The position numbers and the translations under genes are program-made. A model generated the notes under the pieces. It ran no database searches, was not told where the DNA came from, and worked only from the letters and a program-made list of their open reading frames with translations. A DNA stretch of 64,000 nt. Source: Pseudomonas benzenivorans (lineage in GTDB: Bacteria; Pseudomonadota; Gammaproteobacteria; Pseudomonadales; Pseudomonadaceae). The stretch spans positions 620,001 through 684,000 of the forward strand of contig NZ_CP137892.1 in the NCBI RefSeq assembly GCF_033547155.1, in the 5' to 3' direction. The number at the start of each line of letters is the position of its first letter. The first letter of the stretch is position 1. Shown piece by piece: positions 18,811-34,884 of the stretch.

Positions 18811-19827
18811 CTACTGGGCTTGCCAGGCGTACCAGCGTTGGGCGATGGCCTCGCCGTGCTTGCTCCAGTATTTGAAGTCCAGGGTCACCTGGCTGTCGCC
18901 GTGGGCGCTGGGCAGGCTGTCGGCCAGCACCTTGGGTACCCGGCTGGTACTGTCCAGGTTGACCGGCGCATAGCCGCTGAGCATGGCGAAGTCCGCCTGG
19001 GCCTGGGGGCTGCTGGCGAAGCCGAGGAAGCGCTTGGCCGCCTCGGCGTTCTTGGCGCCGCGGGGGATCACCAGGAAATCGCCGCTGACCAAATTCTGCT
19101 GCCAGCCGATGCCGATCGCCGTGCTGCTCTGCTGCAGGGCGTTGATCCGGCCGTTCCAGAACATGCCCAGGCTGGCCTCGCCGGAGGTCAGCAGACGCTG
19201 GGACTCCTCGCCGCTGTCCCACCAGAGGATCTCGGCCTTGATGCGCTCGAGCTTGGCGAAGGCGCGATCCAGGTCCAGCGGGTAGAGGCGCTCGGCGGCG
19301 ACGCCGTCGGCCAGCAGCGCCATCTCCAGCACGCCCGGGCTCGGCCATTTATACAGCGCGCGTTTGCCGGGGAAGTTGGCCGTGTCGAACAGCGCGGCCC
19401 AGCCCTGGGGAGGCGCCGCCAGATGCTCGGTGTTATAGCCGAGGACGAAGGAGAAGTAGAAGGAGCCCACGGCGTACAGGGTGACGAAGCGCGGGTCGAT
19501 CTGCGGCTGGGCGATCTGCTTGAAGTCCATGGGTTCGAGCAGGCCTTCGCGGCCGGCGCGCAGGGCGAAGTCGGGTTCGACGTCGACCACGTCCCAGGTC
19601 ACCTCGCCACTCTCGACCATGGCCTTGAAGGCGGCGTAGTCGGTGGGCCCGGCCTGCTTCACGGCGATGCCGGTGGCGCGGCTGAAGGGCTCGGCCCAGG
19701 CCTTCTGCTGGGCCGCCTGGGTCGAGCCGCCCCAGCTGACGAAGGTCAGGCTCTCCTGGGCCTGCGCGACTTGAACTGCCATCCACAAGGCGCCCAACAG
19801 GACGACCACCGGCCTTGCCAACCCCAT
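18811..19827 (-). CDS. Orphan PotD-type ABC substrate-binding protein
   Basis: 338 residues with a signal peptide (cleavage near VAQAQES). It resembles periplasmic proteins for polyamines and related cationic amines: SLTFVSWGGSTQAAQQKAW at the mature start, DVVDVEPDFALRAGREGLLE, GYAPVN near the C-terminus. No permease or ATPase gene is nearby, so uptake would need subunits encoded elsewhere. GGAG lies 7 nt before ATG 19827. A copy of the TGGTATACC operator family lies 65 nt upstream, tying it to the catabolic cluster that follows. Likely ligand is an amine or betaine; this is inference. Confidence 0.85.
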   Translation of the reverse strand: MGLARPVVVLLGALWMAVQVAQAQESLTFVSWGGSTQAAQQKAWAEPFSRATGIAVKQAGPTDYAAFKAMVESGEVTWDVVDVEPDFALRAGREGLLEPMDFKQIAQPQIDPRFVTLYAVGSFYFSFVLGYNTEHLAAPPQGWAALFDTANFPGKRALYKWPSPGVLEMALLADGVAAERLYPLDLDRAFAKLERIKAEILWWDSGEESQRLLTSGEASLGMFWNGRINALQQSSTAIGIGWQQNLVSGDFLVIPRGAKNAEAAKRFLGFASSPQAQADFAMLSGYAPVNLDSTSRVPKVLADSLPSAHGDSQVTLDFKYWSKHGEAIAQRWYAWQAQ

Positions 19828-19891
19828 AACCAAACTCCCTCGTCATGCTGTGCAGCCATCCCGGGATGGTGTGCGTTGTAATTATGGGATT

Positions 19892-19906
19892 CGGTATACC
19901 AGTATG
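19892..19906. promoter_or_regulatory. GntR operator-like site, copy 1 (divergent member)
   Basis: CGGTATACCAGTATG, related to the TGGTATACCATAATAC sites further on. The core GGTATACC is intact but the right arm differs. It lies 64 nt upstream of the binding-protein gene. Weakest of the six sites. Confidence 0.5.
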
Positions 19907-19992
19907 CCGGACTGCATGCCTAGACCGAGTGCACATTTATGCGATCTGGTTATTAGCATCCTGTCGCGGATGCGCATCCCCGCGGCCGAACG

Positions 19993-20021
19993 AAAAAAGC
20001 CGGATCATCGCTGATCCGGCT
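19993..20021 (-). terminator. Rho-independent terminator of the LLM monooxygenase gene
   Basis: On the minus strand a 10-bp perfect stem (AGCCGGATCA / TGATCCGGCT) with a 4-nt loop is followed by six T. It lies 23 nt after the stop of the LLM gene, a clear intrinsic terminator that isolates this gene from the binding-protein gene. Confidence 0.88.
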
Positions 20022-20044
20022 CTTCTGTACTGCTCAGCTGGGGC

Positions 20045-21088
20045 TCAGCGGAAGGCCGGCACCACGTGCTGGATGAACAGCGCCAGGGACTTCTTCTTTT
20101 CCTCGTGGGACAGGCCGTTGTCGGCCCAGAAGCTGAACTCGTCGACGCCCAGCTCCTGGTAATGGCGGATGCGCGCGATGATCTCCTCGGGGGTGCCGAT
20201 CATGGTGTTCTTGTGGATGTTCTCCAGCTCGAACTCTGGGCGCTCCTTGAACTTCTCCTCGGGGCTCGGCGCCAGCAGGCCGTTGACCGGGGTCTGCTTG
20301 TTGCCGAACCAGGCGTCGAAGGTGCGGTAGAAGCGCGAGATGGCCTGGGCGCCGACCCTCCAGCCTTCGCTGTCTTCTGGGCTGTGCACGTGGGTATGGC
20401 GCAGCACCATCAGTTGCGGGCGCGGCACCTCCGGGTTGTTGGCCAGGGCGGTCTCGAACTTGTTCATCAGGTCGACCACTTCCTCGTCGCCCTTCATCAG
20501 CGGGGTGACCATCACGTTGCAGCCGTGCTTCACCGCGAAGTTGTGCGAGTCGGGGTCGCGGGCGGCGATCCACACGGGCGGGCCAGGCTGCTGCACCGGC
20601 TTGGGCGAGGAGGTGGCGGTGGGGAACTTCCACAGCTCGCCGTCGTGGGCGTAGTCGCCCTGCCACAGGGCCTTGACCACCGGGACCATCTCGCGCAGGT
20701 GCTGGCCGCCGGAGGAGGCCGGCATGCCGCCGGCCATGCGGTCGAATTCGTACTGGTAGGCGCCGCGGGCCAGGCCCACTTCCATGCGCCCGTTGCTGAT
20801 CACGTCGAGCAGGGCGCATTCGCCGGCGACGCGGATGGGGTGCCAGAACGGCGCAATGATGGTGCCGGCGCCGAGGCGGATGGTCGTGGTCTTGCCCGCC
20901 AGGTAGGACAGCAGCGGCATGGGGCTCGGCGAGATGGTGTATTCCATCGCGTGGTGTTCGCCGATCCAGACGGTGCTGAAGCCGCCGGCCTCGGCCATCA
21001 GGGTCAGTTCGGTGAGATTCTCGAACAGTTGACGATGGCTGATCTGCTCGTCGTAGCGCTCCATGTGCACGAACAAAGAAAACTTCAT
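20045..21088 (-). CDS. LLM-class (bacterial luciferase-like) flavin-dependent monooxygenase, TgnB-like
   Basis: 347 residues, a complete luciferase-like TIM barrel: MKFSLFVHMERYDEQISHR at the start, WIGEHHAMEYTISPSP, LGAGTIIAPFWHPIRVAGE, SNGRMEVGLARGAYQYEFDR, and GTPEEIIARIRHYQELGVDE near the end. Such oxygenases use reduced FMN delivered by a separate reductase. The N-terminal motifs look to me like the oxygenase component of trigonelline monooxygenase (TgnB, Acinetobacter), which opens the pyridinium ring; this is recognition from memory, not a search. AGG lies 8 nt before ATG 21088. It has its own promoter region with a GntR operator and its own terminator, divergent from a chemoreceptor gene. 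Confidence 0.88.
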   Translation of the reverse strand: MKFSLFVHMERYDEQISHRQLFENLTELTLMAEAGGFSTVWIGEHHAMEYTISPSPMPLLSYLAGKTTTIRLGAGTIIAPFWHPIRVAGECALLDVISNGRMEVGLARGAYQYEFDRMAGGMPASSGGQHLREMVPVVKALWQGDYAHDGELWKFPTATSSPKPVQQPGPPVWIAARDPDSHNFAVKHGCNVMVTPLMKGDEEVVDLMNKFETALANNPEVPRPQLMVLRHTHVHSPEDSEGWRVGAQAISRFYRTFDAWFGNKQTPVNGLLAPSPEEKFKERPEFELENIHKNTMIGTPEEIIARIRHYQELGVDEFSFWADNGLSHEEKKKSLALFIQHVVPAFR

Positions 21089-21220
21089 GACGCTTACCTC
21101 GAACCTGGGTGTAGTCGGCCTCGACACGGGGTTGGCCGCGGGGGTTAAGAGCGCTGCGCGCTGCATCGATGTGAGCCTGCGGCGATGGCTGATACCCCAG
21201 CACAAGACGCCGCCTCTCGC

Positions 21221-21243
21221 GTATTATTGGTATACCATAATAC
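21221..21243. promoter_or_regulatory. GntR operator, copy 2, between LLM oxygenase and chemoreceptor
   Basis: GTATTATTGGTATACCATAATAC: a palindromic core TGGTATACCA (21228-21237) with GTATTA/TAATAC outer arms. The 17-mer TGGTATACCATAATACG is identical to copies 4 and 5. It lies in the divergent spacer, 57 nt before the chemoreceptor ATG and 132 nt before the LLM ATG, so one repressor could control both. The minus-strand arm reads TATTAT, a possible -10 element. Confidence 0.75.
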
Positions 21244-21300
21244 GTAATATCCGCAAAATCTTTCTGCCCACCGGATAGCCCCTCAGAACAAGGATAGAGG

Positions 21301-23247
21301 ATGAACATCAAGCAAAAACTCACCCTGGCCTTCGCGGTCATCGCCTGCGTACCGGTCATCCTGGTTGCCGTGTTGATCGTGCTCAACCTGCGCAGCGAGG
21401 CGCGCACGGGCTTTCTCGACAGCAGCGGCCGGGAGATTCGCCAGGTCGACAACGCCATGCAGCTGTTCTTCCAGGGCATCAGCCAGAACGTCGAGTTTCT
21501 CGCCGATCACCCGCGGCTCGCGGCCATCGACGGCGGGCTGAAGAGCTATGTCGCGGCGGATGCCGCCGCCACGCCCATGGGCGCGCAGGACCGGCGCCTG
21601 TTCGAGCTGTTCGCCGGCCTGGCCGCCAGCCATCCGGCCTATGCCTACCTGTCGCTGGGCACCCAGGAGGGCGGTTACGTGTTCTGGCCCGGCGATCCCA
21701 AGCTCAGCGGCTACGACCCGCGCAGCCGACCCTGGTACCGGCGGGCCATGGCCCAGCCCGGCCAGACCCAGCGTACCGAGGCCTACTACTGGGCCGCCGA
21801 CGACGTGGTGCTGGTCAGCACCGTGCGCAGCTTCGCCAATCGCCTGGGCAACCCGGGCGGGGTGGTGAATATCGACGTGTCGCTGCAGCAGCTGACCGAC
21901 ATCGTCAAGCAGATCAAGCTGGGCGACAGCGGTTACCTGATGCTCATGGAGCGCGACGGCACGGTGCTGGTCGACCCCAGCGAGCCGGCGCACAACTTCA
22001 AGCCGTTGCGCGAACTGGGTGAGGCCTATGCCCGGCTCGGCAGTGCCGATCGGGGCCTGGTGGAGGTCGAGCTGGACGGCGAGCGCTACATGGCCCATGT
22101 CTGGCCCTCCGCGCAGCTGGGCTGGCGCTTCGTCGGCCTGGTGCGCGAGAGCGAGGTGATGAGCGGCGCGACCCGCCTGACCTGGGGCATCGCCCTGATC
22201 GCGGTGCTGCTGGCGCTGCTGTTCGCCGGCGTCGGTGCCTGGTTCGCCGGCCTGCTGGTACGGCCGATCCGCGCGGTGACCGGCAGTCTGGAGAGCATCG
22301 CCCAGGGCGAGGGCGACCTGACCGGCAGCCTGACGGTGCGCGGCCGCGACGAAACCGCGCAACTGGCCGGCTGGTTCAACCAGTTTCTCGGCGCCATCCG
22401 CCAGCTGATCCAGCGCATCGGCCAGGCGGCGGTGCAGATCCACCGCGCCTCCGGCAGCTCCAGCAGCCTGGCCGCGGAGATGGCCGAGGCCGCCGGGCGC
22501 CAGCGCGAGGCGGTGGACATGGTCTCCACCGCCTTCCACGAGATGGTCATGACCGCCAACGAGGTGGCGCGCTCCTGCAGCCAGGCCGCCGAGTCCGCCG
22601 AGAACGGCCAGCGCCAGGCCCACGACGGCCAGCGCCAGATCGATGCGGCGGTCGGCAGCGTCAACCAGCTCAGTCGGGAGATCGAGCAGTCCGCCGACGC
22701 CATGCTGCAGCTGGAGCAGGACAGCAGCGACATCCAGTCGATTCTCGGCACCATCCGCTCGATCGCCGAACAGACCAACCTGCTGGCCCTCAACGCGGCC
22801 ATCGAGGCGGCCCGGGCCGGCGAGCAGGGGCGCGGCTTCGCGGTGGTCGCCGACGAGGTGCGCGCCCTGGCCAAGCGCACCGCCGATACCACCGGCGAGA
22901 TCGACGACCTGCTCGGCAAGCTGGCCCAGCGCACCCAGCAGATGGGCGTGCAGATGCGCGGCAGCCTGACGGTATCCCAGCAGAGCGTCGGCTCGATCAA
23001 TGCGGCGAGCGCCAGTTTCGAGCAGATCCGCGAATCGGTGGACGTGATTCGCGACATGAACAGCCAGATCGCCACCGCCGCCGAGGAGCAGCATCAGGTG
23101 GCCGAGGACATCAACCGGCACATCAGCCAGATCCACGGCGATGCGCAGCTGGTGGCCGAGCTGGCCGGCTCCACCCGCGATGACGCGCAGCGGCTCACCG
23201 GTCTGTCCGACGAGCTCAACGCCCTGGTCCGGCGTTTTCGCACTTGA
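21301..23247 (+). CDS. Methyl-accepting chemotaxis protein inside the catabolic cluster
   Basis: 648 residues: TM1 ~8-30, a periplasmic dCache domain ([13 protein letters not shown] motif and VVNIDVSL), TM2 ~292-318, HAMP, then signalling helices with [18 protein letters not shown] (~488). GATAGAGG directly precedes the ATG. It is divergent from the LLM monooxygenase gene and shares an operator region with it, so the receptor probably senses the pathway substrate or a product and is made only when the pathway is induced. It is similar in layout to the receptor at 7753 but clearly different in its ligand domain. Confidence 0.92.
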
Positions 23248-23346: not shown

Positions 23347-23832
23347 TCAGGCGAAGGCTTGCAGGGCGCCCATCTTGCCGCGGCAGTAGACCATCGGGAT
23401 CACCTCCTGCTGCGGCACTATGAGGTTCTTCACCGCGCCGACCAGGATGGCGTGGTCGCCGCCCTCGTATTCGCGCCACAGCTCGCACTCGATGATCGCC
23501 GTGGCCTTGCTCAGGATGGGGTTGCCCAGCTCGCTGAGGGTCCACTCGATGCCCTGGGCCTTGTCGCTGCCCTTGCGGGCGAAGGCATAGGCTTCGCCCT
23601 GCTGCTCGGCCGACAGCAGGTGGATGGCGAAGCGCTTGCGCTTGATCAGCGCCGGGTAGGAGTCGGAGCTGTAGTTGGGGCAGAACAGCACCAGGGCCGG
23701 GTCCATCGACAGGGAGCTGAAGGCGCTGGCGGTCATGCCGACCAGCCCGCCGTTATCGTCCAGGGTGGTGATCACGGTGACGCCAGAGGGGAAGGAACCC
23801 ATGACTTGTTTGTAGGCACTTGCATCGATCAT
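23347..23832 (-). CDS. Flavin reductase-like protein 1 (TgnA-like)
   Basis: 161 residues of the HpaC/FMN-binding split-barrel family: MGSFPSGVTVITTLDDNGGL at the start, GMTASAFSSLSMDPALVLFC for flavin binding, and ECELWREYEGGDHAILVGAV. It reduces FMN with NAD(P)H and hands it to a monooxygenase partner. GGAGG lies 8 nt before ATG 23832. It aligns without gaps with the second copy at 28942 (121 of 161 residues identical by hand count). It lies downstream of its own operator (copy 3) and is transcribed toward the chemoreceptor gene. Confidence 0.9.
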   Translation of the reverse strand: MIDASAYKQVMGSFPSGVTVITTLDDNGGLVGMTASAFSSLSMDPALVLFCPNYSSDSYPALIKRKRFAIHLLSAEQQGEAYAFARKGSDKAQGIEWTLSELGNPILSKATAIIECELWREYEGGDHAILVGAVKNLIVPQQEVIPMVYCRGKMGALQAFA

Positions 23833-23920
23833 CTGGGAGACCTCCGGAGACATGCTGCACCCGGCAGCGCAGGGGAAGGAGTCGGGGGTCGCCACCAGGC
23901 GGGTGGCGCGTTGTGTCTGA

Positions 23921-23936
23921 TGGTATACCGTAATAC
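23921..23936. promoter_or_regulatory. GntR operator, copy 3, before flavin reductase 1
   Basis: TGGTATACCGTAATAC, one mismatch to the 16-base consensus. It lies 88 nt upstream of the flavin reductase ATG. Confidence 0.7.
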
Positions 23937-24057: not shown

Positions 24058-25167
24058 TTAGGCGCCGAAGGTCAGGGTTTCCACCACTTCCAGGTCGTAG
24101 CCGGTGAGGCCGGCGTACTTCAGCGGGGCGCCGAGGTGGCGCAGCTTGCCGACGCCGATGTCCTGGAGGATCTGCGCGCCGGTGCCGACCTCGGAGTAGA
24201 TGCGCGACTGCGAGCGGTTGAACTGCTGGCGCGGCTGGGTCAGTTGCGGCACCCGCTCCAGCAGGGCCTGGGACGACTCGTTGTTGGCCAGCACCACCAC
24301 CACGCCGCGACCTTCCTCGGCGACCTTCTGCAGCGCCGCCCACAGCGTCCAGTTCTGCGGTCCGGTGTATTCGGCGCCGACCAGGTCGCGCAGCGGGTCG
24401 ATCACGTGCACCCGCACCAGAGTGGGGACGTCGCGCTCGATCTCGCCCATGACCATGGCCATGTGCACGCCGCCTTCGATGCGGTCCTCGTAGGTGATCA
24501 GGCGGAAGTCGCCGTGCACGGTGGGCAGCTCGCGCTCGCCGATGCGGGTCACGGTGTGCTCGGTGCTCAGGCGGTAGTGGATCAGGTCGGCGATGGTGCC
24601 GATCTTGATGCCGTGCTGGGCGGCGAATCTTTCCAGATCGGGGCGGCGGGCCATGCTGCCGTCCTCGTTCATCACCTCGACTATGACCGACGCCGGGCTG
24701 AAGCCGGCCAGGCGCGCCAGGTCGCAGCCGGCCTCGGTGTGCCCGGCGCGGTTGAGCACGCCGCCGTCGCGGGCGCGCAACGGGAAGATGTGCCCGGGCT
24801 GCACCAGGTCCTCGGCCTTGGCGTCCGGCGCCACGGCGGCCAGCACGGTGCGCGCGCGGTCGGCGGCGGAGATGCCGGTGGTCACCCCGCTGGCGGCCTC
24901 GATGGAGATGGTGAAGGCGGTGGAGAAGGCGCTGCTGTTGCTCGGTACCATCTGCTCCAGTCCCAGGCGCTGGCAGTGCGCGTCGGTCAGGGTCAGGCAG
25001 ATCAGGCCGCGGGCCTCGCGGGCCATGAAGTTGATCGCCGCCGGCGTGCAGCGTTCCGCCGCCAGCAGCAGGTCGCCCTCGTTCTCGCGGTCTTCGTCGT
25101 CGACCAGCAGGACCATCTTGCCCTGGCGGTAGTCCTCGATGATTTCTTCGATGCTGTTGAATGCCAT
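24058..25167 (-). CDS. ribB: 3,4-dihydroxy-2-butanone-4-phosphate synthase with degenerate GTP cyclohydrolase II-like domain
   Basis: 369 residues. The N-terminal ~205 residues are a complete DHBP synthase: [16 protein letters not shown] (metal/substrate acids), [32 protein letters not shown]. It makes the 4-carbon unit of riboflavin from ribulose 5-phosphate. The C-terminal ~160 residues resemble RibA, but where GTP cyclohydrolase II has its zinc cysteines and GDVFGSxRCDC loop this protein reads [19 protein letters not shown], so that activity is lost, as in other pseudomonad RibB proteins. Its place inside a flavin-monooxygenase cluster, behind a GntR operator, suggests an extra copy that raises FMN supply on demand. 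Confidence 0.88.
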
Positions 25168-25214
25168 GCCAGTGCTCTCGGGGTTGCGATGGATGAGGAT
25201 GTGCGGCAGGCTTT

Positions 25215-25231
25215 ATGGTATACCATAATAC
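25215..25231. promoter_or_regulatory. GntR operator, copy 4, between ribB and DUF1330 gene
   Basis: ATGGTATACCATAATAC, followed by CG, with the full consensus 17-mer. It lies in a 91-nt divergent spacer, 47 nt from the RibB ATG and 27 nt from the DUF1330 ATG. The spacer is too short to hold an FMN riboswitch. Confidence 0.75.
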
Positions 25232-25258: not shown

Positions 25259-25552
25259 ATGAAGGCTTACTGGATCGCCCATGTCGAGGTGACGGACCCC
25301 GAGCAGTACGGCGAATACACCCGGCGGGCGCCGGCGGCGTTCGCCAAGTACGGCGGCACCTTTCTCGCCCGCGGCGGCCGCGCCCAGGCGCTGGAGGGGC
25401 GGGCGACGCCGCCGCGCAACGTGGTCATCGAGTTCGACTCCTACGAGCAGGCGTTGGCCTGCTACAACTCGGCGGAGTACCAGGAGGCCTGCGGCCACCG
25501 CCAGGGTGCGGCGGTCGCCGAGGTGATCATAGTCGAAGGCTGCGCGCCCTGA
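25259..25552 (+). CDS. DUF1330 small protein (dimeric alpha-beta barrel)
   Basis: 97 residues of the DUF1330 family: MKAYWIAHVEVTDPEQYGEY at the start, AKYGGTFLARGGR in the middle and VVIEFDSYEQALACYNSAEY before the end. The fold is the ferredoxin-like dimeric barrel also used by small monooxygenases and isomerases. GGAGG lies 4 nt before ATG 25259. It is divergent from ribB and shares its operator. Role in the pathway unknown; handling of a reactive ring-opened intermediate is possible. Confidence 0.85.
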   Translation: MKAYWIAHVEVTDPEQYGEYTRRAPAAFAKYGGTFLARGGRAQALEGRATPPRNVVIEFDSYEQALACYNSAEYQEACGHRQGAAVAEVIIVEGCAP

Positions 25553-25586: not shown

Positions 25587-26150
25587 TCAGCGGATAAAGT
25601 GCACCTTGCCGCTGTCGTCGTTGCCGATGTAGATGCCGTAGACCCCGGCCTGGCGCTCCTCGATGTAACGCTCGAGGATCTGCCGGATGGCCGGGTAGTA
25701 GATGCTTTCCCAGGGAATTTCCTCGGGGGCGAAGAAGCGGTAGTCGAGGGTCTCCGGACCGAAGCTGCCGGTCACTTCCACCACCACGGCGCGGAAGATG
25801 ATGTACACCTCGCTGATCTTCGGCACGCTGAAGATCGAATAGGGCGAGACGATGTCCGCGCGCACCCCGGTCTCCTCCCACACCTCGCGCAGGGCCGCCT
25901 GCTCGGTGGTCTCGCCACCTTCCATGAAGCCCGCCGGCAGGGTCCAGGTACCGGGGCGCGGGGCGATGGCGCGCTGGCACAGCAGGTACTTGCCGTCCTG
26001 TTCGATGATGCAGCCGGCGATGATCTTCGGGTTTTCGTAGTGGATGTAGGCGCAGTCCGCGCACATCAGCCGTTCATGGCTGTCGCCGGGCGGTACCCGG
26101 CGGCTCAGGCGGTCGGCGCCACACTGGGGGCAGAAGCGCGGGGCGGGCAC
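25587..26150 (-). CDS. NUDIX hydrolase with N-terminal zinc ribbon
   Basis: 187 residues from a GTG start at 26150. The zinc ribbon CPQC...CADC precedes a NUDIX domain with the box GFMEGGETTEQAALREVWEE (GX5EX7REUXEE). This architecture is close to NudC-type NADH/FAD/ADP-ribose pyrophosphatases. GTG is chosen because it is 4 nt after the stop of the upstream GntR gene and keeps the first zinc pair; the only later ATG would cut the ribbon in half. It is coupled to the regulator gene. In this setting hydrolysis of FAD to FMN, or clearing of damaged nucleotide cofactor, is conceivable but unproven. Confidence 0.85.
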   Translation of the reverse strand: MPAPRFCPQCGADRLSRRVPPGDSHERLMCADCAYIHYENPKIIAGCIIEQDGKYLLCQRAIAPRPGTWTLPAGFMEGGETTEQAALREVWEETGVRADIVSPYSIFSVPKISEVYIIFRAVVVEVTGSFGPETLDYRFFAPEEIPWESIYYPAIRQILERYIEERQAGVYGIYIGNDDSGKVHFIR

Positions 26151-26999: not shown

Positions 27000-27389
27000 T
27001 TACGGTTGGCTTTCGGCATCGGCCTCGGCGAAAGCCTCGCGGGCGATGCGGAAACTGTCCACGGCGGCTGGCACGCCGCAGTAAATGCCGACCTGAAGCA
27101 GGATCTCGCGAATCTGCTCACGGCTCAGGCCGTTGCGCAGGGCGCCGCGGATATGCAGCTTCAGTTCGTGCGGGCGATTGAGTGCCGAAATCATCGCCAA
27201 GTTTATCATGCTGCGTTCGGCCAGGGACAAACCCTCGCGGCCCCACACGTGGCCCCAGCAGTACTCGGTGACCAGCTCCTGCAGGGGGCGGTTGAAGTCG
27301 TCGGCGTTGTCGATCGACTTACTGACATAGGCCTCGCCCAGCACCTGGGTGCGGATCGCCAGGCCCTTCTCGTACTTGTCGTTGCTCAT
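27000..27389 (-). CDS. Carboxymuconolactone decarboxylase-family protein
   Basis: 129 residues with the CMD fold: REGLSLAERSMINLAMISAL, RPHELKLHIRGALRNGLSRE and VGIYCGVPAAVDSFRIA. It lacks the CxxC of AhpD-type members and is closer to PcaC-like gamma-carboxymuconolactone decarboxylases. GGAG lies 6 nt before the ATG. It is the second gene of an operon with the succinate-semialdehyde-type dehydrogenase (25-nt gap). It may decarboxylate or isomerise a lactone intermediate of the pathway; this is inference. Confidence 0.87.
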   Translation of the reverse strand: MSNDKYEKGLAIRTQVLGEAYVSKSIDNADDFNRPLQELVTEYCWGHVWGREGLSLAERSMINLAMISALNRPHELKLHIRGALRNGLSREQIREILLQVGIYCGVPAAVDSFRIAREAFAEADAESQP

Positions 27390-27414: not shown

Positions 27415-28866
27415 TCACAGGCCGCCCATCAGGGTGTATTTGATCTCGAGGTAGTCCTCGATGCCGTACTTGGAGCCTTCGCGCCCCAGGCCCGAGGCCT
27501 TGACCCCGCCGAAGGGCGCCACCTCGGTGGAGATCAGCCCCTCGTTGATACCGACCATGCCATATTCCAGCGCCTCGCTCATGCGCCAGGCGCGGCCCAG
27601 GTCGCGGGTGTAGCAGTAGGCCGCCAGGCCGTACTCGGTGTCGTTGGCCAGCTGCACGGCCTCGGCTTCGCCGCTGAAGCGGAACACCGCGGCCAGCGGG
27701 CCGAAGGTCTCCTCGCGGGCCACCTTCATCTCCAGGCTCAGGTCGGCCAGCACCGTGGGCTGGAAGAAGCCGTGGCCCAGGGCGTGGCGCTCGCCGCCGC
27801 AGAGCAGGCGCGCACCCTTGCCCAGGGCGTCCTGCACGTGGTCTTCGACCTTGGCCACGGCACGCTCGTTGATCAGCGGGCCCTGGGTGACGCCGGACGC
27901 GAAGCCGTCGCCGACCTTGAATTCGGCCACTCGCTCGGCCAGGCGGGTCACGAACGCCTCGTAGATGCCCTCCTGCACCAGGAAGCGGTTGACGCACACG
28001 CAGGTCTGCCCGGCGTTGCGGTATTTGGCGATCAGCGCGCCCTCGACCGCACGCTCCAGGTCGGCGTCGTCGAAGACGATGAACGGCGCGTTGCCGCCCA
28101 GCTCCAGGGAGACCTTCTTCAGGGTGTCGGCGCACTGGGCCATCAGCAGCTTGCCGATCGCCGTGGAGCCGGTGAAGGACAGCTTGCGCACCGCCGGGCT
28201 GGCGGTCAGCTCGCCGCCGATGGCCACCGCGTCGCCGGTGATGACGTTGAAGATGCCCGCCGGGACGCCGGCCTGTTCGGCCAGGGCGGCCATGGCCAGG
28301 GCGGAGAAGGGCGTCTCCGGCGCCGGCTTGACGATGCACGGGCAGCCGGCGGCCAGGGCCGGGCCGGCCTTGCGGGTGATCATCGCAGCGGGGAAGTTCC
28401 ACGGGGTGATGGCGGCGACCACGCCGATCGGCTCCTTGCTCACCACGATGCGCGCATCGCCCTTGTGGCTGGGGATGGTGTCGCCGTAGATGCGCTTGGC
28501 TTCCTCGGCGAACCATTCGATGAAGCTGGCGGCATACAGGACCTCGCCCTTGGCCTCGGCCAGCGGCTTGCCCTGCTCCAGGGTGAGGATTTCGGCCAGG
28601 GCGTCGGCGTGCTCCAGCATCAGCGCGTGCCAGCGCTTGAGGACGGCGCTGCGCTCCTTGGCGGTGCGCGCGCGCCAGGCCGGCCAGGCGGCGTTGGCGG
28701 CGGCGATGGCGCGCTGGGCTTCGGCGCTGCCCATGTTCGGCACCCGGCCGATCAGGGCGCCGTTGGCCGGGTTGAAGATGTCCTGGGTGGAGGCGTCCTG
28801 GGCGTCGCACCATTGGCCGTCGATATAGGCCTGCTGGCGGAACAGTTGCGCGGCTGCTGGGGTCAT
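27415..28866 (-). CDS. NAD(P)-dependent succinate-semialdehyde dehydrogenase-type ALDH
   Basis: 483 residues, GabD type: PWNFPAAMITRKAGPALAAG, general base Glu255 in LELGGNAPF, nucleophile Cys289 in NAGQTCVCVNR, and a C-terminal EVAPFGGVKASGLGREGSK. The GQTCVCxNR context is characteristic of succinate- and glutarate-semialdehyde dehydrogenases. It would convert the C4 product of ring cleavage to succinate, equivalent to TgnE in the trigonelline route. GGAG precedes the ATG. It is preceded by a terminator and followed closely by the CMD-family gene. Confidence 0.9.
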   Translation of the reverse strand: MTPAAAQLFRQQAYIDGQWCDAQDASTQDIFNPANGALIGRVPNMGSAEAQRAIAAANAAWPAWRARTAKERSAVLKRWHALMLEHADALAEILTLEQGKPLAEAKGEVLYAASFIEWFAEEAKRIYGDTIPSHKGDARIVVSKEPIGVVAAITPWNFPAAMITRKAGPALAAGCPCIVKPAPETPFSALAMAALAEQAGVPAGIFNVITGDAVAIGGELTASPAVRKLSFTGSTAIGKLLMAQCADTLKKVSLELGGNAPFIVFDDADLERAVEGALIAKYRNAGQTCVCVNRFLVQEGIYEAFVTRLAERVAEFKVGDGFASGVTQGPLINERAVAKVEDHVQDALGKGARLLCGGERHALGHGFFQPTVLADLSLEMKVAREETFGPLAAVFRFSGEAEAVQLANDTEYGLAAYCYTRDLGRAWRMSEALEYGMVGINEGLISTEVAPFGGVKASGLGREGSKYGIEDYLEIKYTLMGGL

Positions 28867-28941: not shown

Positions 28942-29427
28942 TCAGGCGATGGCGGGCAGGGCGCCGAGCTTGCCGCGGTGATAGACCATGGGCGTGACCT
29001 CGGTCTCGGGCAGGATCAGGTTCTGCACCGCGCCGACGATGATGGCGTGGTCGCCGCCGTCGTACTCGCGCCACAGCTCGCACTCGATGATCGCGGTGGC
29101 GTTGTTCAGCAGCGGGTTGCCCCGCTCGCTGAGGTGCCAGTCGATGCCCTTGGCCTTGTCCTTGCCCTTGCCGGCGAAGGCGTAGGCCTCGGCCTTCTGC
29201 TCGGCGGACAGCAGGTGGATGGCGAAGCGCTTGCTGGCGCAAAGCACCGGGTAGGAGTCCGAGGCGTAGTTGGGGCAGAACAGCACCAGCGCCGGGTCGA
29301 TGGACAGGGCGCTGAAGGCGCTGGCGGTGATGCCGACGATGCCGCCGTCCTGGTCGAGGCAGGTGACCACGGTGACGCCGGAGGGGAAGGAGCCCATCAC
29401 CTCTTTGTAAATGCCGGGTTCGATCAT
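28942..29427 (-). CDS. Flavin reductase-like protein 2 (TgnA-like paralogue)
   Basis: 161 residues, same family and length as the protein at 23347 and identical to it at 121 positions by hand count. Conserved segments include MGSFPSGVTV, CPNYASDSYP, RFAIHLLSAEQ and TAIIECELWREY. Differences cluster at residues 3-9, 61-66 and 141-150, possibly changing partner or flavin preference. It is the last gene of the operon DUF1185-hydrolase-ALDH-reductase. Either this copy or the first should serve the LLM monooxygenase; two copies for one visible oxygenase is unusual. Confidence 0.9.
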   Translation of the reverse strand: MIEPGIYKEVMGSFPSGVTVVTCLDQDGGIVGITASAFSALSIDPALVLFCPNYASDSYPVLCASKRFAIHLLSAEQKAEAYAFAGKGKDKAKGIDWHLSERGNPLLNNATAIIECELWREYDGGDHAIIVGAVQNLILPETEVTPMVYHRGKLGALPAIA

Positions 29428-29459: not shown

Positions 29460-30941
29460 TCAACGCATCACGAAGGGGTCGGCCATGGGCGCCTGCGAGA
29501 GGTTGATCCACACCGTCTTCTGCTCGGTGTAGGCGAGCACCGAGTCGATGCCGCTCTCGCGACCGTAGCCGCTGTTCTTGAAGCCGCCGATCGGCGCCAT
29601 GGCCGAGACCGCGCGGTAGGTGTTGACCCAGATGATGCCGGAGCGCACGTCGCGGGCCAGGCGGTGGGCGCGGCCCAGGTCGCGGGTCCAGATGCCGGCG
29701 GCCAGGCCGAACTGCGAGTCGTTGGCGATGGCCAGGGCCTCGGCCTCGTCCTTGAAGCGGATCACCGAGGCGACCGGGCCGAACACCTCTTCCTGCATGA
29801 TCTTCATCGAGTTGCTGTCGCACTCGAACAGGGTCGGCTCGTAGTACCAGCCGTTGCCCTCGATCTGCGGGCGCTTGCCGCCCAGGCGCAGCTTCGCGCC
29901 TTCGGCCAGGGCGTCGGCGACCAGGCCTTCGACCACCGCCAGCTGCTGCGCGGTGGCCATGGGGCCCATCTCGCTGCTGTCGTCCTGCGGGTTGCCGATG
30001 CGGATGCGCCGGGCGCGCTCGACCAGGCGCTCGACGAATTCGTCGTAGATCGCGTCCTGTACCAGCAGGCGCGAGCCGGACACGCAGCTCTGCCCCGAGG
30101 CGGCATAGATGCCGGCGACGGCGCCGTTGATGGCGCTGTCCAGGTCGGCGTCGGCGAAGATGATGTTCGGCGACTTGCCGCCCAGCTCCAGCGACAGCTT
30201 GGCGAAGTTCTCCGCGCTGCTGCGCACCACGTGGCGGGCGGTGGCGGCGCCGCCGGTGAAGGCGATCTTGCGCACCAGCGGGTGGCGGGTCAGCGCGGCA
30301 CCGGTGCTCGGGCCGTAGCCGGTGACCACGTTGACCACGCCCGGCGGAATGCCGGCTTCCAGGGCCAGGCGGGCCAGCTCGAGGATGGTCGCCGAGGCGT
30401 GCTCGGAGGGCTTGAGCACCACGGTGTTGCCGGCGGCCAGGGCCGGTGCCAGCTTGATCGCGGTGAGGTACAGCGGGCTGTTCCAGGGGATGATCGCCGC
30501 CACCACGCCGAGCGGCTCGTGCACCGTGTAGCCGAACATGTCGGTCTTATCCAGCGGCAGGGTGCCGCCTTCGAGCTTGTCGGCCAGGCCCGCGGTGTAA
30601 TGGAAGAACTCCGGCAGGTAGCCGACCTGGCCGCGGGTCTCGCGGATCAGCTTGCCGTTGTCGCGGCTCTCCAGCTGGGCCAGGCGCTCCTTGTTCTCGG
30701 CGATCAGGTCGCCCAGGCGACGCAGCAGCTTGCCCCGGGCGGTGGCCGTCAGGCCGCGCCAGGCCGCGCCGTCGAAGGCCGCTTGCGCGGCCTGCACGGC
30801 GCGCTCGACGTCGGTTTCGGCGGCGTCGGGCAGCTCGGCCCAGGGCTCGGCATGGGCCGGGTCGAGGCTGTGGAAGGTCTTGCCGGAAAGGGCATCGACC
30901 CATTGGCCGTCGATGCACATCTGAAAGCGCGTGAGTGTCAT
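29460..30941 (-). CDS. NAD(P)-dependent aldehyde dehydrogenase (TgnC-like candidate)
   Basis: 493 residues: IPWNSPLYLTAIKLAPALAA, Glu252 in LELGGKSPNIIF, nucleophile Cys286 in ASGQSCVSGSRLLVQ, and a C-terminal APIGGFKNSGYGRESG. The GQSCVSGSR context is unlike betaine-aldehyde or semialdehyde enzymes and fits dehydrogenases of unusual carbonyl or hemiacetal intermediates. In the trigonelline pathway a dehydrogenase of this family (TgnC) oxidises the hydroxybutyrolactone ring-opening product. Its ATG overlaps the stop of the hydrolase gene by 4 nt, indicating coupled translation. Confidence 0.9.
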   Translation of the reverse strand: MTLTRFQMCIDGQWVDALSGKTFHSLDPAHAEPWAELPDAAETDVERAVQAAQAAFDGAAWRGLTATARGKLLRRLGDLIAENKERLAQLESRDNGKLIRETRGQVGYLPEFFHYTAGLADKLEGGTLPLDKTDMFGYTVHEPLGVVAAIIPWNSPLYLTAIKLAPALAAGNTVVLKPSEHASATILELARLALEAGIPPGVVNVVTGYGPSTGAALTRHPLVRKIAFTGGAATARHVVRSSAENFAKLSLELGGKSPNIIFADADLDSAINGAVAGIYAASGQSCVSGSRLLVQDAIYDEFVERLVERARRIRIGNPQDDSSEMGPMATAQQLAVVEGLVADALAEGAKLRLGGKRPQIEGNGWYYEPTLFECDSNSMKIMQEEVFGPVASVIRFKDEAEALAIANDSQFGLAAGIWTRDLGRAHRLARDVRSGIIWVNTYRAVSAMAPIGGFKNSGYGRESGIDSVLAYTEQKTVWINLSQAPMADPFVMR

Positions 30942-31771
30942 GCAACGATCCCCTCTGCTGGGTTCTCTATGGTCTGGGCGCGATGGAGGAAGTCGAGCAG
31001 CAGCTGGTTGACCAGGCGCGGCGACTCTACCGGCATCATATGCCGCTGCTCGGCGAGTACGGCGACCTCTGCGCCGGGAATGCGCGCGGCCAACTCGCGG
31101 GCCATCTGCGGAGTCGAGCCGGGGTCCAGCTCGCCGGTGGCGATCAGGGCCGGCACGCGGATGCCGTGCAGGGCATCGGCCCGGTACATGTCCTGGGTGG
31201 CGAACAGCTCGTAGGTGGTCAGGTAGCCCTGCGGATCGTTGCTGGCCAGGGTCTGGCGCAGCGCGGCGATCTGCGCCGGGTTGGCCGCCTGGTATTCGCG
31301 GCTGAACCAGCGCGCCAGGGCCGCCTCGGCGTTGGCGTTGGGGCCGTGCTCGGCGACCTGGCGGGCGCGTTCGATCACCCCGGCGCTCTGCTCCGGGCTG
31401 CGGTTGAACACGCTGTTGAGCACCACCAGGCCGCCGGTGCGCTGCGGGTAGTGCAGGGCGAAGGCCCGGGCGATCAGACCGCCCATGGAGAAGCCGATGA
31501 TGCTGGCCTGAGCCAGTTCCAGGTGGTCGAGCAGCTCGAGCAGCTGCTCGGCATAGCCGACCAGGTCCGTGCCGCTGGCCGGGCGTGGGCTGGCGCCATG
31601 GCCGAGCATGTCGTAGGCGATGACCCGGTAGTGCGGAGCCAGGCCGACGATCTGTCCGCCCCACATCTCTTTATTCAGGCCTACGCCGTGGATCAGGACC
31701 ACGGGTTGGCCTTGGCCGGTCGCCAGGTAGCTGGTGCCGGCGGGGGTGCGTTCAGCGGTGAGTAGTGTCAT
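30938..31771 (-). CDS. Alpha/beta-fold hydrolase (TgnD-like candidate)
   Basis: 277 residues with the canonical triad: Ser95 in GFSMGG, Asp216 in ATGELDPGST, His244 in EQRHMMPVE, and the oxyanion segment VLIHGVGLNKEMW. In the vitamin B6 and trigonelline pathways alpha/beta hydrolases split an acyl-aminomethylene-succinate to succinate semialdehyde, CO2, an amine and a carboxylate; this enzyme is placed where such a step is needed. GGAG lies 5 nt before the ATG. It is second in the operon, 24 nt after DUF1185, and overlaps the next gene by 4 nt. Confidence 0.9.
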   Translation of the reverse strand: MTLLTAERTPAGTSYLATGQGQPVVLIHGVGLNKEMWGGQIVGLAPHYRVIAYDMLGHGASPRPASGTDLVGYAEQLLELLDHLELAQASIIGFSMGGLIARAFALHYPQRTGGLVVLNSVFNRSPEQSAGVIERARQVAEHGPNANAEAALARWFSREYQAANPAQIAALRQTLASNDPQGYLTTYELFATQDMYRADALHGIRVPALIATGELDPGSTPQMARELAARIPGAEVAVLAEQRHMMPVESPRLVNQLLLDFLHRAQTIENPAEGIVA

Positions 31772-31795
31772 GGGCGCTCCTGCACTGACCGGTGA

Positions 31796-32395
31796 TTACT
31801 GAGCCTGCTGGGCTTGCTCGGCGGCCAGTTCTTCCAGGTCGATGTAGCGGCTGCCGATGCGCGGGTGCAGGCGGCCACCGTCGGAGGCGCCCAGGACCAC
31901 GACGATCTCGTCGGCGCGCGGTGCGTCTTCGATCTGCATTTCCAGGGTGACGTAGTGCGAGCGTGCGCCTTCGTCGTCCTTGTGCATCATCGGGATCTGG
32001 ATCGAGGTGCCAGGGCCGCCGCGCTTGTTGGTGAAGCTCAGGTAGCTCTTGGCGTTCACCGCCTGGCGGTAGTGGTTGCCGAAGCGCAGGTTGTGGATCA
32101 CCGCGGAGGCGTGCTCGATCTCGCCGTCGGCGCCGACCACGGCGGCCTTGCCGTAGGCTTCGATCTTGTCGGCGCCGCCAATGGCGGCGCTCAGGCGCTC
32201 GACCATCAACGCACCCAGCTCGGAGGCGTGGGGGTTGAGTTCGGAGCGGATATCTTCGACGAAGCCGCGGCCGGCCCAGGGGTTCTTCATCACGACTGCC
32301 AGGCCGACCATGGTGATCGGCTTGTCGGTGGCCTTGCCACCTTCGATAAGGGTTTCTTCCACGTAGCTGACGATCTTGCGGATTTCGAAGCTCAT
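31796..32395 (-). CDS. DUF1185 (amino acid synthesis family) protein
   Basis: 199 residues of the AA_synth/DUF1185 family: MSFEIRKIVSYVEETLIEGG at the start, VVMKNPWAGRGFVEDIR, ASAVIHNLRFGNHYRQAV and KRGGPGTSIQIPMMHK. Its biochemical function has not been established to my knowledge; members recur in catabolic operons beside hydrolases and dehydrogenases. AGGAG lies 6 nt before the ATG. It is the first gene of the four-gene operon with a consensus GntR operator 45 nt upstream, so it should be among the most strongly induced proteins and deserves a biochemical role in the pathway. Confidence 0.88.
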   Translation of the reverse strand: MSFEIRKIVSYVEETLIEGGKATDKPITMVGLAVVMKNPWAGRGFVEDIRSELNPHASELGALMVERLSAAIGGADKIEAYGKAAVVGADGEIEHASAVIHNLRFGNHYRQAVNAKSYLSFTNKRGGPGTSIQIPMMHKDDEGARSHYVTLEMQIEDAPRADEIVVVLGASDGGRLHPRIGSRYIDLEELAAEQAQQAQ

Positions 32396-32440
32396 GAGGC
32401 TCTCCTGGCTGCTGAAGGGGGGGCATCTAAGTCGGTATCA

Positions 32441-32456
32441 TGGTATACCATAATAC
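32441..32456. promoter_or_regulatory. GntR operator, copy 5, before the DUF1185 operon
   Basis: TGGTATACCATAATAC, followed by CG, with the full consensus 17-mer. It lies 45 nt upstream of the DUF1185 ATG, so repressor bound here would block the promoter. A second partial half-site (GGTATCA) adjoins it on the left. Confidence 0.78.
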
Positions 32457-32496
32457 GACTTGTGCAAATCCTGTTGCAGTCGAGGTGCGACAGGGG

Positions 32497-33057
32497 GTGG
32501 CGCCTGTAGTGGAGGGCGAGCCTGTGGCTTCCCCGCTGGCAGGCACCCTGGCGATGTTCAGCTATCCGCTGATCTACCAGTTCTCCGGCATGAGCGAGCA
32601 GGCGTTCGGCATCTATATAGGCAGCACCGTGCACGAGGTGGCCCAGGCGGTCGCCGCCGGGGAGGCCGTAGGCGGCGAGGCGCTGCAAGCGGCGGTGGTG
32701 GTCAAGCTGATCCGGGTGATGATGCTCGCGCCCTTCATCCTGCTGCTCAGCACCTTCCTGGCGCGCCGCGGTGACGGCGAGGGCGGTGGCAAGCTGGTGA
32801 TCCCCTGGTTCGTCCTGGGCTTCGTCGCCGCCGCCGGCAGCAACAGCCTGCAGGTCTTGCCGCCGGCACTCATGCCGGCCATTCGGCTCGTCAGCCAGTT
32901 CACCCTGGCCATCGCCATGGCCGCCCTCGGCGTGCAGACGCGCTGGAGCACCATTTGTCAGGCGGGCGCCGGGCCCATGGTGCTGGCGCTGATCCTGTTC
33001 CTGCTGCTGATCGTGGGCGGTTTTTTCCCCAATCAATGGCTGATCGGCGCGCGCTAG
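32497..33057 (+). pseudogene. 5'-truncated yeiH (UPF0324 putative sulfate exporter family)
   Basis: About 185 residues match only the C-terminal half of YeiH-family membrane proteins (full length ~340): FGIYIGSTVHEVAQAVAAGE, LIRVMMLAPFILLLSTF, IPWFVLGFVAAAGSNS, LAIAMAALGVQTRWS. Similarity stops abruptly near 32497, about 40 nt past operator copy 5, and the preceding bases are operator DNA, not YeiH sequence. By eye there also seems to be a short internal deletion before AMFSYPLIYQF. The N-terminal half is not elsewhere in the window. This looks like a remnant left when the catabolic operon joined this locus. Confidence 0.8.
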
Positions 33058-33164
33058 CTAGGCGGCGCTCCGTCGGATAGTTCTGGGGGCAAGAGGAGGT
33101 GCCGTAACGAGGCCACAGGCGGTTGCGTCAGAGTCTTTATCGCTGGGTGTCGAATGGGTTTACC

Positions 33165-33189
33165 GTATTATGGTGTGTGGTATACCATG
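33165..33189. promoter_or_regulatory. GntR operator, copy 6, before the BCCT transporter
   Basis: GTATTATGGTGTG overlaps a following TGGTATACCATGG: an intact core TGGTATACCA (33178-33187) with an extra GTATTATGG half-site on its left. It lies ~124 nt before the transporter start. The double half-site may bind two dimers. Confidence 0.7.
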
Positions 33190-33312
33190 GTCGGAGCGAT
33201 TGCTGCTGCCTGCAGCTCTCTGGTTGCAGAGGGCGCGGGGGCCACAGTGCCCCTCGCGGTCGCGACAAGCACCTATGTGTGTCCCATACAAAAATAAGGA
33301 GGAGGCGCGCTC

Positions 33313-34884
33313 GTGAGCGAACATCCTATGCAAGGCACCCAGCGTCTGTTCGCAGGCGTCAATCCGACGATGGCCATCTCATCCCTGGTGATGGTGCTGG
33401 CCTTCGTGCTGTTCACCGTGTCCTACAGCGAGCTGGCCAACGGTCTGTACACCGGCATCAAGCAGTGGATCGAGAGCTCCCTGGGCTGGTATTACGTGGC
33501 CGTGGTCAGCGGCGTGTTGTTCTTCACCTTCTGGGTCGGGCTCAGCCGTTTCGGCAACCTGCGTCTGGGGCGCGAGGACGAGCGCCCGGAATTCAGCAAC
33601 TTCTCCTGGTTCGCCATGTTGTTCAGCGCCGCGGTCGGTACCGGCCTGCTGTTCTGGAGCATCGCCGAGCCGCTGATGCACATGCAGGGCAACCCCTTCA
33701 TGGACATGGCCGGGGTCGCAGCGAATACGCCGGAAGCGGCGCAGATCGCCCTGCGCGTGACCATGTTCCACTGGGGTCTGCACGGCTGGTGCATCTACAT
33801 CATCGTCGGCCTGGTCCTGGCCTACTTCACCTACCGACGCGGCCTGCCGCTGACCGTGCGATCGGCGCTCTACCCGCTGATCGGCGAGCGCATCTACGGC
33901 CCCATCGGCCATGCCGTCGACCTGCTGGCGATCTTCAGCACCCTGTTCGGCACCGCCACCACCCTGGGGCTGGGCGTATCGCAGATGAACGCCGGTCTGA
34001 ACTACATGTTCGGCGTCGAGATCTCCACCGCCAACCAGCTGATCCTGATCGCCGGGACCGCGGTGGTCGCCACCCTGTCGGCGGTCTCCGGGGTGCGCAA
34101 GGGCATTCTCTGGCTCAGCGAGTGGAACATCCGCCTGAGCAGCATCCTCTTCCTGTTCCTGCTGCTGGCCGGGCCGACCGTGTTCCTGCTGGGTCTGTAC
34201 GCCACCAGCCTGGGCGACTACCTGGCCACCTTCATCCCCATGGGTATGTGGACCGACTCCAACCCCGAGCGGCAGTGGCAGGGCTGGTGGACCATCTTCT
34301 ACTGGGGCTGGTGGCTGTCCTGGGGCCCGTTCGTCGGCATGTTCATCGCCCGCATCTCCCGTGGCCGCACCGTGCGCCAGGTAGTCCTGGGCGGCATGCT
34401 CGCCTCGACCCTGGGCGCCTTCCTGTGGATCGTGATCATGGGCGGTACCGGCGTGTCGCTGCAGCTGGCCGGCGCCATCGACCTCAACGCGGTGGCCAAC
34501 TCCGACGTGACCATGGTGCTGTACAAGACCATCGAGGGCCTGAACGTGTCCTGGGCGACCATGGCCATGGCCGGCCTGGCGACCCTGATGATCATCAGCT
34601 GGTTCGTCACCTCGGCCGACTCTGCGACCCTGGTGATCTGCACCATCCTGTCCATGGGCAACCAGAACCCGCCGCAGCGCTTCCGCGTCATCTGGGGTCT
34701 GGGCCTGGGCGCCCTGGCCGGCGTGCTGCTGCTGGCCGGCGGCCTGAAGGGCCTGCAGGCGGCCACCATCGCCGCGGCGCTGCCGTTCTCCGTGGTGCTG
34801 CTGGTGATTTGCTACAGCCTGGTGCGCGCGCTGCATCAGGAAGAGGGCGAGGCGCTGTGCGCCCGCGCCGTCCCGGGCGCCTGA
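33313..34884 (+). CDS. BCCT-family betaine/carnitine/choline transporter
   Basis: 523 residues, twelve predicted membrane segments. The BCCT signature GWWTIFYWGWWLSWGPFVG is intact, with the Trp-rich substrate box. FSAAVGTGLLFWSIAEPL and GLGVSQMNAGLNYMFG are also family hallmarks. These carriers import zwitterionic quaternary ammonium compounds; trigonelline and homarine are such betaines. Start at GTG 33313 because AAGGAGGAGG lies just upstream; the next ATG would remove five residues. The N-terminus is short and there is no long C-terminal osmosensing tail, pointing to substrate uptake for growth instead of osmoprotection. Preceded by operator copy 6. Confidence 0.93.
   Translation: MSEHPMQGTQRLFAGVNPTMAISSLVMVLAFVLFTVSYSELANGLYTGIKQWIESSLGWYYVAVVSGVLFFTFWVGLSRFGNLRLGREDERPEFSNFSWFAMLFSAAVGTGLLFWSIAEPLMHMQGNPFMDMAGVAANTPEAAQIALRVTMFHWGLHGWCIYIIVGLVLAYFTYRRGLPLTVRSALYPLIGERIYGPIGHAVDLLAIFSTLFGTATTLGLGVSQMNAGLNYMFGVEISTANQLILIAGTAVVATLSAVSGVRKGILWLSEWNIRLSSILFLFLLLAGPTVFLLGLYATSLGDYLATFIPMGMWTDSNPERQWQGWWTIFYWGWWLSWGPFVGMFIARISRGRTVRQVVLGGMLASTLGAFLWIVIMGGTGVSLQLAGAIDLNAVANSDVTMVLYKTIEGLNVSWATMAMAGLATLMIISWFVTSADSATLVICTILSMGNQNPPQRFRVIWGLGLGALAGVLLLAGGLKGLQAATIAAALPFSVVLLVICYSLVRALHQEEGEALCARAVPGA

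Follow-up and report, generated by a model that had tools for sequence, protein, structure and literature searches.

The stretch analyzed here, called the window, comprises 64,000 nucleotides of Pseudomonas benzenivorans (contig NZ_CP137892.1, positions 620,001 to 684,000) out of a genome of 4.5 Mb in a single contig. Between 18.8 and 34.9 kb, it contains a gene cluster whose predicted products resemble the trigonelline-degrading (Tgn) proteins of Acinetobacter. Trigonelline, or N-methylnicotinate, is a plant betaine that is abundant in plants and coffee. The pathway for its degradation, said to be the subject of Perchat et al. 2018, was reportedly worked out in Acinetobacter baylyi, the species of strain DSM 14961; to our knowledge, this has been done in Acinetobacter only.

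A row of genes on the minus strand, extending from position 32395 down to position 25587, was read as a putative catabolic operon. Its first gene encodes a TgnF-type DUF1185 protein (31796 to 32395, PF06684). It is followed by the genes for a TgnD-type alpha/beta hydrolase, the predicted MFMS hydrolase (30938 to 31771, profile match); a TgnC-type aldehyde dehydrogenase (ALDH) with the motif GQSCVSGSR, the predicted MFMB dehydrogenase (29460 to 30941, profile match); flavin reductase 2 (28942 to 29427, PF01613); a TgnE-type succinate-semialdehyde dehydrogenase (SSADH; 27415 to 28866); a CMD-family protein (27000 to 27389, PF02627); a TgnR-like GntR/FCD regulator as the penultimate gene (26155 to 26907, Pfam); and a NUDIX hydrolase with an N-terminal Zn ribbon and an intact Nudix box (25587 to 26150, PF14803 and PF00293). 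The SSADH-type ALDH reached 725 bits with TIGR01780 (cut-off 646) and 804 bits with PRK11241 (cut-off 828). Also on the minus strand are the genes for a periplasmic solute-binding protein (SBP), SBP_bac_8 and spermidine/PotD-like, with no adjoining permease or ATPase gene (18811 to 19833, Pfam); a luciferase-like flavin-dependent monooxygenase (LLM), which is the TgnB-type oxygenase component with predicted ring-cleaving activity (20045 to 21088, PF00296); flavin reductase 1, a TgnA-type reductase domain alone (23347 to 23832, PF01613); and a second RibBA, a bifunctional 3,4-dihydroxy-2-butanone-4-phosphate synthase and GTP cyclohydrolase II (24058 to 25167, PF00926 plus PF00925, NF009132). 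The plus strand encodes a dCache_1 chemoreceptor (methyl-accepting chemotaxis protein, MCP) with a PscC-like sensor domain, divergent from the oxygenase gene (21301 to 23247, Pfam), a DUF1330 protein (25259 to 25552, PF07045, 132.7 bits), and a BCCT betaine carrier (33313 to 34884, PF02028, 593 bits). All genes named by an earlier sequence-only reading of this DNA were present, although its “extra RibB” is actually the bifunctional RibBA, and the NUDIX gene as well as a YeiH fragment had been overlooked. This YeiH-type 3' fragment (32440 to 33057) lies between the operon with its operator and the BCCT gene and matched positions 153 to 304 of PF03601 alone, which is the C-terminal half. It looks like a remnant, and the nearest relative, G138, had no YeiH match within its 40-kb stretch.

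Comparison with the cluster of A. baylyi DSM 14961 yielded identities of 51.0% over 347 amino acids for the LLM, 38% for the domain of flavin reductase 1 (to TgnA), 53% over 491 amino acids for the ALDH, 71% for the SSADH, 55% for DUF1185, 78% for the CMD protein, 51% for DUF1330, and 36% for GntR. The hydrolase was 34% identical (34 to 37% across the tgn clusters), and its gene adjoins that of DUF1185, as it does there. A plasmid cluster of Acinetobacter sp. PK01, found by tblastn on plasmids and annotated tgnA, tgnB, and tgnC, has the same gene set; the window LLM is 51.6% identical over 347 amino acids to its TgnB and the DUF1330 protein 52.7% identical to its counterpart. A DUF1185-type protein is described in PMC7913881 as homologous to TgnF, which stimulates the TgnE-dependent oxidation of succinate semialdehyde in A. 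baylyi. Judged by these matches to A. baylyi and by DUF1185 as the TgnF homologue, relatives of all six Tgn proteins are encoded in the cluster, the reductase in two copies. In the search against TgnA to TgnE that the sequence-only reading had asked for, the LLM, reductase, ALDH, and SSADH matched, and the hydrolase is a possible TgnD homologue at 34 to 37% identity. That reading had also placed the accessory genes beyond the core pathway, which holds for RibBA, the separate NUDIX protein, and the second reductase, but not for DUF1185 as the TgnF homologue or for CMD, DUF1330, and GntR, which occur in Acinetobacter too.

Database names point in the same direction. The JGI name trigonelline monooxygenase was found on 4 of 120 listed LLM homologues (those 76 to 79% identical), MFMS hydrolase on 2 of 120 listed hydrolase homologues (82 and 88%), and MFMB dehydrogenase on 2 of 120 listed ALDH homologues. 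The window hydrolase is 96% identical to a Pseudomonas lalucatii protein; among solved structures, the 3-oxoadipate enol-lactonase 2XUA matched best, and no (E)-2-(acetamidomethylene)succinate hydrolase was among the 60 of 337 matches listed. A sulfonate monooxygenase was rejected for the LLM, which reached 36.5 bits with the SsuD model at a cut-off of 518. The separation from sulfonate monooxygenases, on which the sequence-only reading had staked its proposal, is given by model score and not by phylogeny.

The genes of the cluster also share a palindrome, TTATGGTATACCATAA. Four occurrences with up to 3 mismatches were located in the window, compared to 0.01 expected, and a search of the whole genome with the 14-base core and up to 2 mismatches found five palindromic places, all inside the cluster, while the reversed control pattern matched two places. 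The five sites, four of them from the pattern scan, are positioned 43 bp before DUF1185 (32438 to 32453), upstream of BCCT (33175 to 33190; core with up to 2 mismatches, 16-mer with 4), between RibBA and DUF1330 (25213 to 25228, a perfect TTATGGTATACCATAA), upstream of flavin reductase 1 (23918 to 23933), and between the LLM and MCP genes (21225 to 21240). The SBP gene has no site of its own and would therefore be read together with the LLM gene. The palindrome is the predicted operator site of the GntR regulator encoded in the cluster.

This prediction is based on conservation. A site with the TGGTATACCA core was read from the maps immediately before DUF1185 in all 14 Pseudomonas-family relatives with DUF1185 in the fetched 40-kb stretch, and in the same 14, the genes for DUF1185, hydrolase, ALDH, reductase, GntR, and NUDIX were located together. 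These relatives came from a set of 21 whose fetched stretches contained a complete or partial LLM ortholog; four stretches with a 44% LLM were not counted, and in the others, the block was located elsewhere or cut off at the end of the stretch. The block being kept in 14 of 14 relatives, together with a shared palindrome confined to the cluster, indicates a grouping of these genes beyond chance. In 199 Pseudomonas genomes, the site was found at 1 mismatch in 110 of 112 with the oxygenase (not in G043 and G080) compared to 3 of 87 without it (G058, G076, and G113; Fisher P = 9e-50, relatedness uncorrected), and the reversed control pattern matched in 3 of the 199. G044 and G119, which possess a 44% LLM only, were counted as “without” and G046 and G080, with incomplete LLM matches, as “with.” A further 80 named loci came from a genome collection queried with TgnB of PK01, where at least 592 stretches matched the pattern, at least 559 encoded a relative, and the nearest 80 were kept, A. 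baylyi DSM 14961 among them; because they were chosen as nearest to this TgnB, they form an uneven sample. The site was present anywhere in 21, 58, and 75 of the 80 loci at 1, 2, and 3 mismatches (reversed pattern, 0, 0, and 2), and 30 to 70 bp before DUF1185 in 20, 37, and 72 of 79 loci (reversed pattern, 0, 0, and 0), leaving at 3 mismatches 5 of 80 loci with no site anywhere and 7 of 79 with none at this distance. In A. baylyi, one site with two mismatches is positioned 54 bp before DUF1185 and another with one mismatch before SSADH. The GntR proteins of the compared clusters largely share the DNA-binding region. No palindrome with up to 4 mismatches was found in the Arthrobacter cluster, which has a more divergent GntR, or in G473. 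The site is conserved across Pseudomonas, Acinetobacter, and Alphaproteobacteria, and a limited literature search found no description of a trigonelline cluster in Pseudomonas or of its operator.

With relatives of all six Tgn proteins, a putative operator common to the tgn clusters, and an LLM 51.0 to 51.6% identical to TgnB, the trigonelline-type chemistry proposed by the sequence-only reading gains support. The cluster is probably the Pseudomonas form of the trigonelline catabolic cluster, in which the ring would be opened and carried to succinate under five palindromes as predicted GntR operator, and trigonelline is the likely, best-supported substrate. The BCCT carrier, perhaps also the SBP, would import the betaine. 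A reductase would make reduced flavin mononucleotide (FMNH2), with which the LLM oxygenase would cleave the C5-C6 bond to MFMB; the ALDH would convert MFMB to MFMS, the hydrolase MFMS to succinate semialdehyde, methylamine, formate, and CO2, and the SSADH, aided by DUF1185, succinate semialdehyde to succinate. Steps and names of intermediates are those of the Acinetobacter pathway or were taken from database product names. GntR may act as a repressor that also controls its own gene and is released by trigonelline or a pathway intermediate, so that the control linked to the palindrome would switch on enzymes, uptake, chemotaxis, and the second RibBA together. RibBA would raise the riboflavin output without feedback by flavin mononucleotide (FMN), the NUDIX hydrolase would convert flavin adenine dinucleotide (FAD) to FMN, and the cell would be spared flavin starvation by an oxygenase consuming FMNH2.

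The proposed role of the NUDIX protein comes from its relationship to the TgnA-type reductases. In tblastn comparisons, the window NUDIX matched the reductase of Leisingera (30% over 145 amino acids, 4e-10) and that of Paraburkholderia (27%, 8e-8), with no match in PK01, S. meliloti, and A. baylyi; residues 184 to 314 of 3RH7 matched it at 5.1e-5; and an alignment showed a common C-terminal tail. These three results together indicate the relationship, although four TgnA-type reductases of 308 to 312 amino acids showed no NUDIX domain in the Pfam search. A match to the window NUDIX was inside the open reading frame (ORF) of the reductase in 37 of 79 loci, had its best position elsewhere in 17, and was absent from the rest. 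In 17 Burkholderia-group loci (L126, L127, L129, L140, L151, and 12 others), a NUDIX-like stretch is located several kilobases from tgnA and is perhaps a second reductase-NUDIX protein. The window protein has an intact Nudix box, as do all 17 standalone relatives that were found, among them those of G392 and G328. The box is missing in the four fused NUDIX domains of the 44% clusters and in 79 of 79 TgnA-type reductases examined, all with an ORF of at least 260 amino acids. A single-sequence structure prediction of the window NUDIX gave a mean predicted local distance difference test score of 41.

The conversion of FAD to FMN is only a reasoned guess, since the nearest solved relative of the NUDIX protein, 3CNG, is listed as undetermined in PMC5389931. 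A serious competitor, with a chance not far below even, is a NUDIX that cleaves not FAD but NADH or some other nucleotide: the solved relatives of the protein include NADH pyrophosphatases, and the best NCBIfam match is the NAD(+) diphosphatase model, albeit with 47.9 bits far under its cut-off of 158. The fusion of a NUDIX-like domain with a flavin reductase speaks for a flavin instead. AtNUDX23 presumably has the same Zn-ribbon domain as the window protein. It is an FAD pyrophosphatase, as stated in PMC9678776, which again favors FAD.

The second RibBA and the housekeeping copy share 60% identity. The genome search detected a single FMN riboswitch, upstream of the housekeeping ribBA with an intervening ORF read by eye as riboflavin synthase; none was found in the window, hence none at the cluster RibBA. 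Cluster-type RibBA was present in 108 of the 112 Pseudomonas genomes with the oxygenase, being missing from G007, G021, G096, and G107, compared to 1 of the 87 without it (G076). The Pseudomonas form is marked by RibBA, the separate NUDIX, and the second reductase, and a role in FMN supply may be inferred. None of the 80 named loci, from Acinetobacter to Alphaproteobacteria, has a RibBA, which means that the pathway does not generally require additional flavin synthesis. This absence, the four Pseudomonas exceptions, the many substrates of the NUDIX family, and the listing of 3CNG would also fit a scenario in which linkage or common regulation preserved RibBA and NUDIX for some different purpose, such as riboflavin export or nucleotide clean-up, with a flavin supply unrelated to the pathway. 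Such a scenario is rather unlikely, because RibBA tracks the oxygenase even when, as in G015, it is distant from it on the map, and because it bears an operator in the window; moreover, TgnA-type proteins combine the reductase and a NUDIX-like domain in one chain, and in the Arthrobacter plasmid cluster whose LLM is 74% identical, a riboflavin kinase takes the place of RibBA, with a NUDIX protein of another kind in the same cluster. Supply of FMN by RibBA and NUDIX leads to a wider proposal, which is put forward tentatively: one GntR and one 16-bp operator, from Pseudomonas to Acinetobacter and rhizobia, might couple betaine breakdown to on-demand FMN by a riboswitch-free RibBA and a Zn-ribbon NUDIX, the NUDIX having been fused to the reductase with loss of its box in the TgnA line and a riboflavin kinase being used instead in an actinobacterium.

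With respect to uptake, the BCCT carrier was 86 to 96% identical in five mapped relatives, 68% in G392, and 53% in G473. The SBP is 55 to 57% identical to SBPs in tgn-type clusters of S. meliloti and Paraburkholderia. Many relatives possess a second SBP gene between those of reductase 1 and RibBA, and in G069, which was read closely, the adjoining ORFs appeared by eye to encode an ABC ATPase and permeases. A complete ABC importer of this cluster type elsewhere in the genome of the window was rejected: the best permease relative was only 40% identical, and the binding protein is therefore left without an adjoining importer.

The position of the chemoreceptor gene beside a site suggests co-regulation. 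Its sensor domain is closest to the structure 6MNI (377 bits over 269 residues), named PscC in PMC8694187. PscC of P. syringae binds γ-aminobutyrate (GABA) and L-proline (PMC9452764). In an alignment to PctA, the six positions of the amino acid motif described for PctA were kept (Y121, R126, W128, Y129, Y144, and D173, own numbering), and the amine-type (dCache_1AM) motif was not found. Amine-type domains are covered by PMC10104139; there, none of the domains tried with trigonelline bound it. A betaine-type chemoreceptor was dropped as a candidate on the basis of PscC as nearest solved domain and the amino acid motif. Chemotaxis to the substrate had been part of the sequence-only reading; due to the likeness to PscC, the receptor provides no evidence for betaine sensing.

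Several points weigh against trigonelline degradation under a common operator and with its own flavin supply. The chemoreceptor looks like an amino acid receptor of the GABA/proline type. The JGI names were transferred by homology, and the names of most listed homologues are general, including sulfonate-monooxygenase-like ones. The hydrolase is only 34 to 37% identical to TgnD. Only conservation speaks for binding of GntR to the site. On the side of the flavins, RibBA is missing from the named loci as mentioned, the listing of 3CNG applies, and the NUDIX of the Arthrobacter cluster is only distantly like that of the window (31% over 56 amino acids). No protein above the cut-off of TIGR03105 (GlnT/GmaS type) was found in the genome of the window, so the released methylamine may not enter the N-methylglutamate route. 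The tgn cluster of PK01 adjoins genes for sarcosine oxidase, folD, and purU (L093, 1456 to 8410), an arrangement that would suit the processing of methyl and formyl carbons.

The LLM tree adds another such point, since it placed the window LLM on a branch with proteins of Pseudomonas, Nitrincola, Gibbsiella, and actinobacteria, apart from the Acinetobacter and rhizobial oxygenases; those of Acinetobacter, Paraburkholderia, S. meliloti, Leisingera, G473, and G322 formed a separate group with a support of 100/99. The fork uniting the side of the window with G392 and G328 was weak (86/40), and the 43 to 44% proteins from four Pseudomonas genomes were far outside. Thirty-three rows were kept in this tree, including six added from the 120 listed homologues, and G080 (broken) as well as Pseudomonas G015, G011, G062, G043, G022, G146, and G065 were dropped. 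The long branches of the S. meliloti and 44% groups meet, and the tree contained no SsuD.

The same chemistry acting on another N-methylated or unmethylated pyridine acid, such as homarine, N-methylnicotinamide, or a pyridinium alkaloid, with trigonelline as poor substrate or none, would agree with the separate LLM branch at about 52% identity, the low similarity of the hydrolase, a gene set diversified as in the 43 to 44% LLM cluster type of 4 of the 199 Pseudomonas genomes, and the lack of a visible SSADH gene within the cluster in 7 of the 14 mapped relatives, but it is improbable, because a putative operator and regulator type shared with the tgn clusters of Acinetobacter suggest a shared inducer, and because the SSADH in the operon of the window fits a succinate-semialdehyde product. 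The homarine pathway, which the sequence-only reading had kept as an alternative, was dropped: it became less likely since SSADH sits in the operon, whereas homarine breakdown involves Mgd, in a route through N-methylglutamate (PMC13390433 for Mgd).

The second cluster type itself, in G119, G048, G129, and G044 (L081 to L088), encodes a 43 to 44% LLM, a reductase-NUDIX fusion, ALDH, hydrolase, CMD, DUF1185, and SSADH, and the TGGTATACCA core was not found in the four stretches. It probably performs the same chemistry on a different ring compound.

With the site, trigonelline regulons could be located in a wide range of genera, and the signal sensed by the regulator could be probed directly. 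Should RibBA and NUDIX indeed supply FMN, the cluster would represent a catabolic regulon that makes its own cofactor and escapes riboswitch feedback in doing so, a principle that would be useful for engineering of FMNH2-dependent monooxygenases.

Compared to known systems, the cluster of the window shares much of its gene set with the tgn clusters of Acinetobacter (A. baylyi DSM 14961; plasmid NZ_CP094644.1 of PK01), which likewise contain the six Tgn families, GntR, CMD, and DUF1330 and a palindrome about 50 bp before DUF1185, perfect in PK01 and with two mismatches in A. baylyi; there, a palindrome is also positioned before SSADH, with two mismatches in PK01 and one in A. baylyi. Unlike the window, they encode one reductase of 310 amino acids, the C-terminal half of which aligns with the NUDIX-like halves of other reductases, no RibBA, and, in PK01, a carrier of the cytosine permease type. 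On pSymA of S. meliloti (CP073679.1), the genes for DUF1185, hydrolase, reductase, LLM (51.6%), and ALDH, all with counterparts in the window, are in a row, with a two-mismatch site before DUF1185 and an SBP/ABC transporter in the same row, its SBP 57% like that of the window. In contrast to the window, the C-terminal half is present in its reductase, which is nearly identical to 3RH7 (675 bits, whole length), RibBA has no match, and GntR appears only as a tblastn match (41%) outside the listed annotation.

Plasmid pDCT5 of Arthrobacter dokdonellae resembles the window in a 74% identical LLM, SSADH, NUDIX, two DUF1185 proteins, hydrolase, ALDH, GntR, and reductase. It differs by a fusion of SnoaL and reductase, a riboflavin kinase in place of RibBA, a cytosine permease, no CMD or DUF1330 match, and no palindrome at up to 4 mismatches. 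In this cluster (L095), the flavin reductase fused to the SnoaL-like domain is encoded at 6493 to 7431, and a tautomerase gene adjoins the LLM gene. Unlike PscC of P. syringae, the receptor of the window adjoins a trigonelline-type oxygenase gene with the predicted operator in between. The Pseudomonas form as a whole is set apart from that of Acinetobacter by two single-domain reductases without the C-terminal half of TgnA, a standalone NUDIX with intact box, RibBA, BCCT, and MCP.

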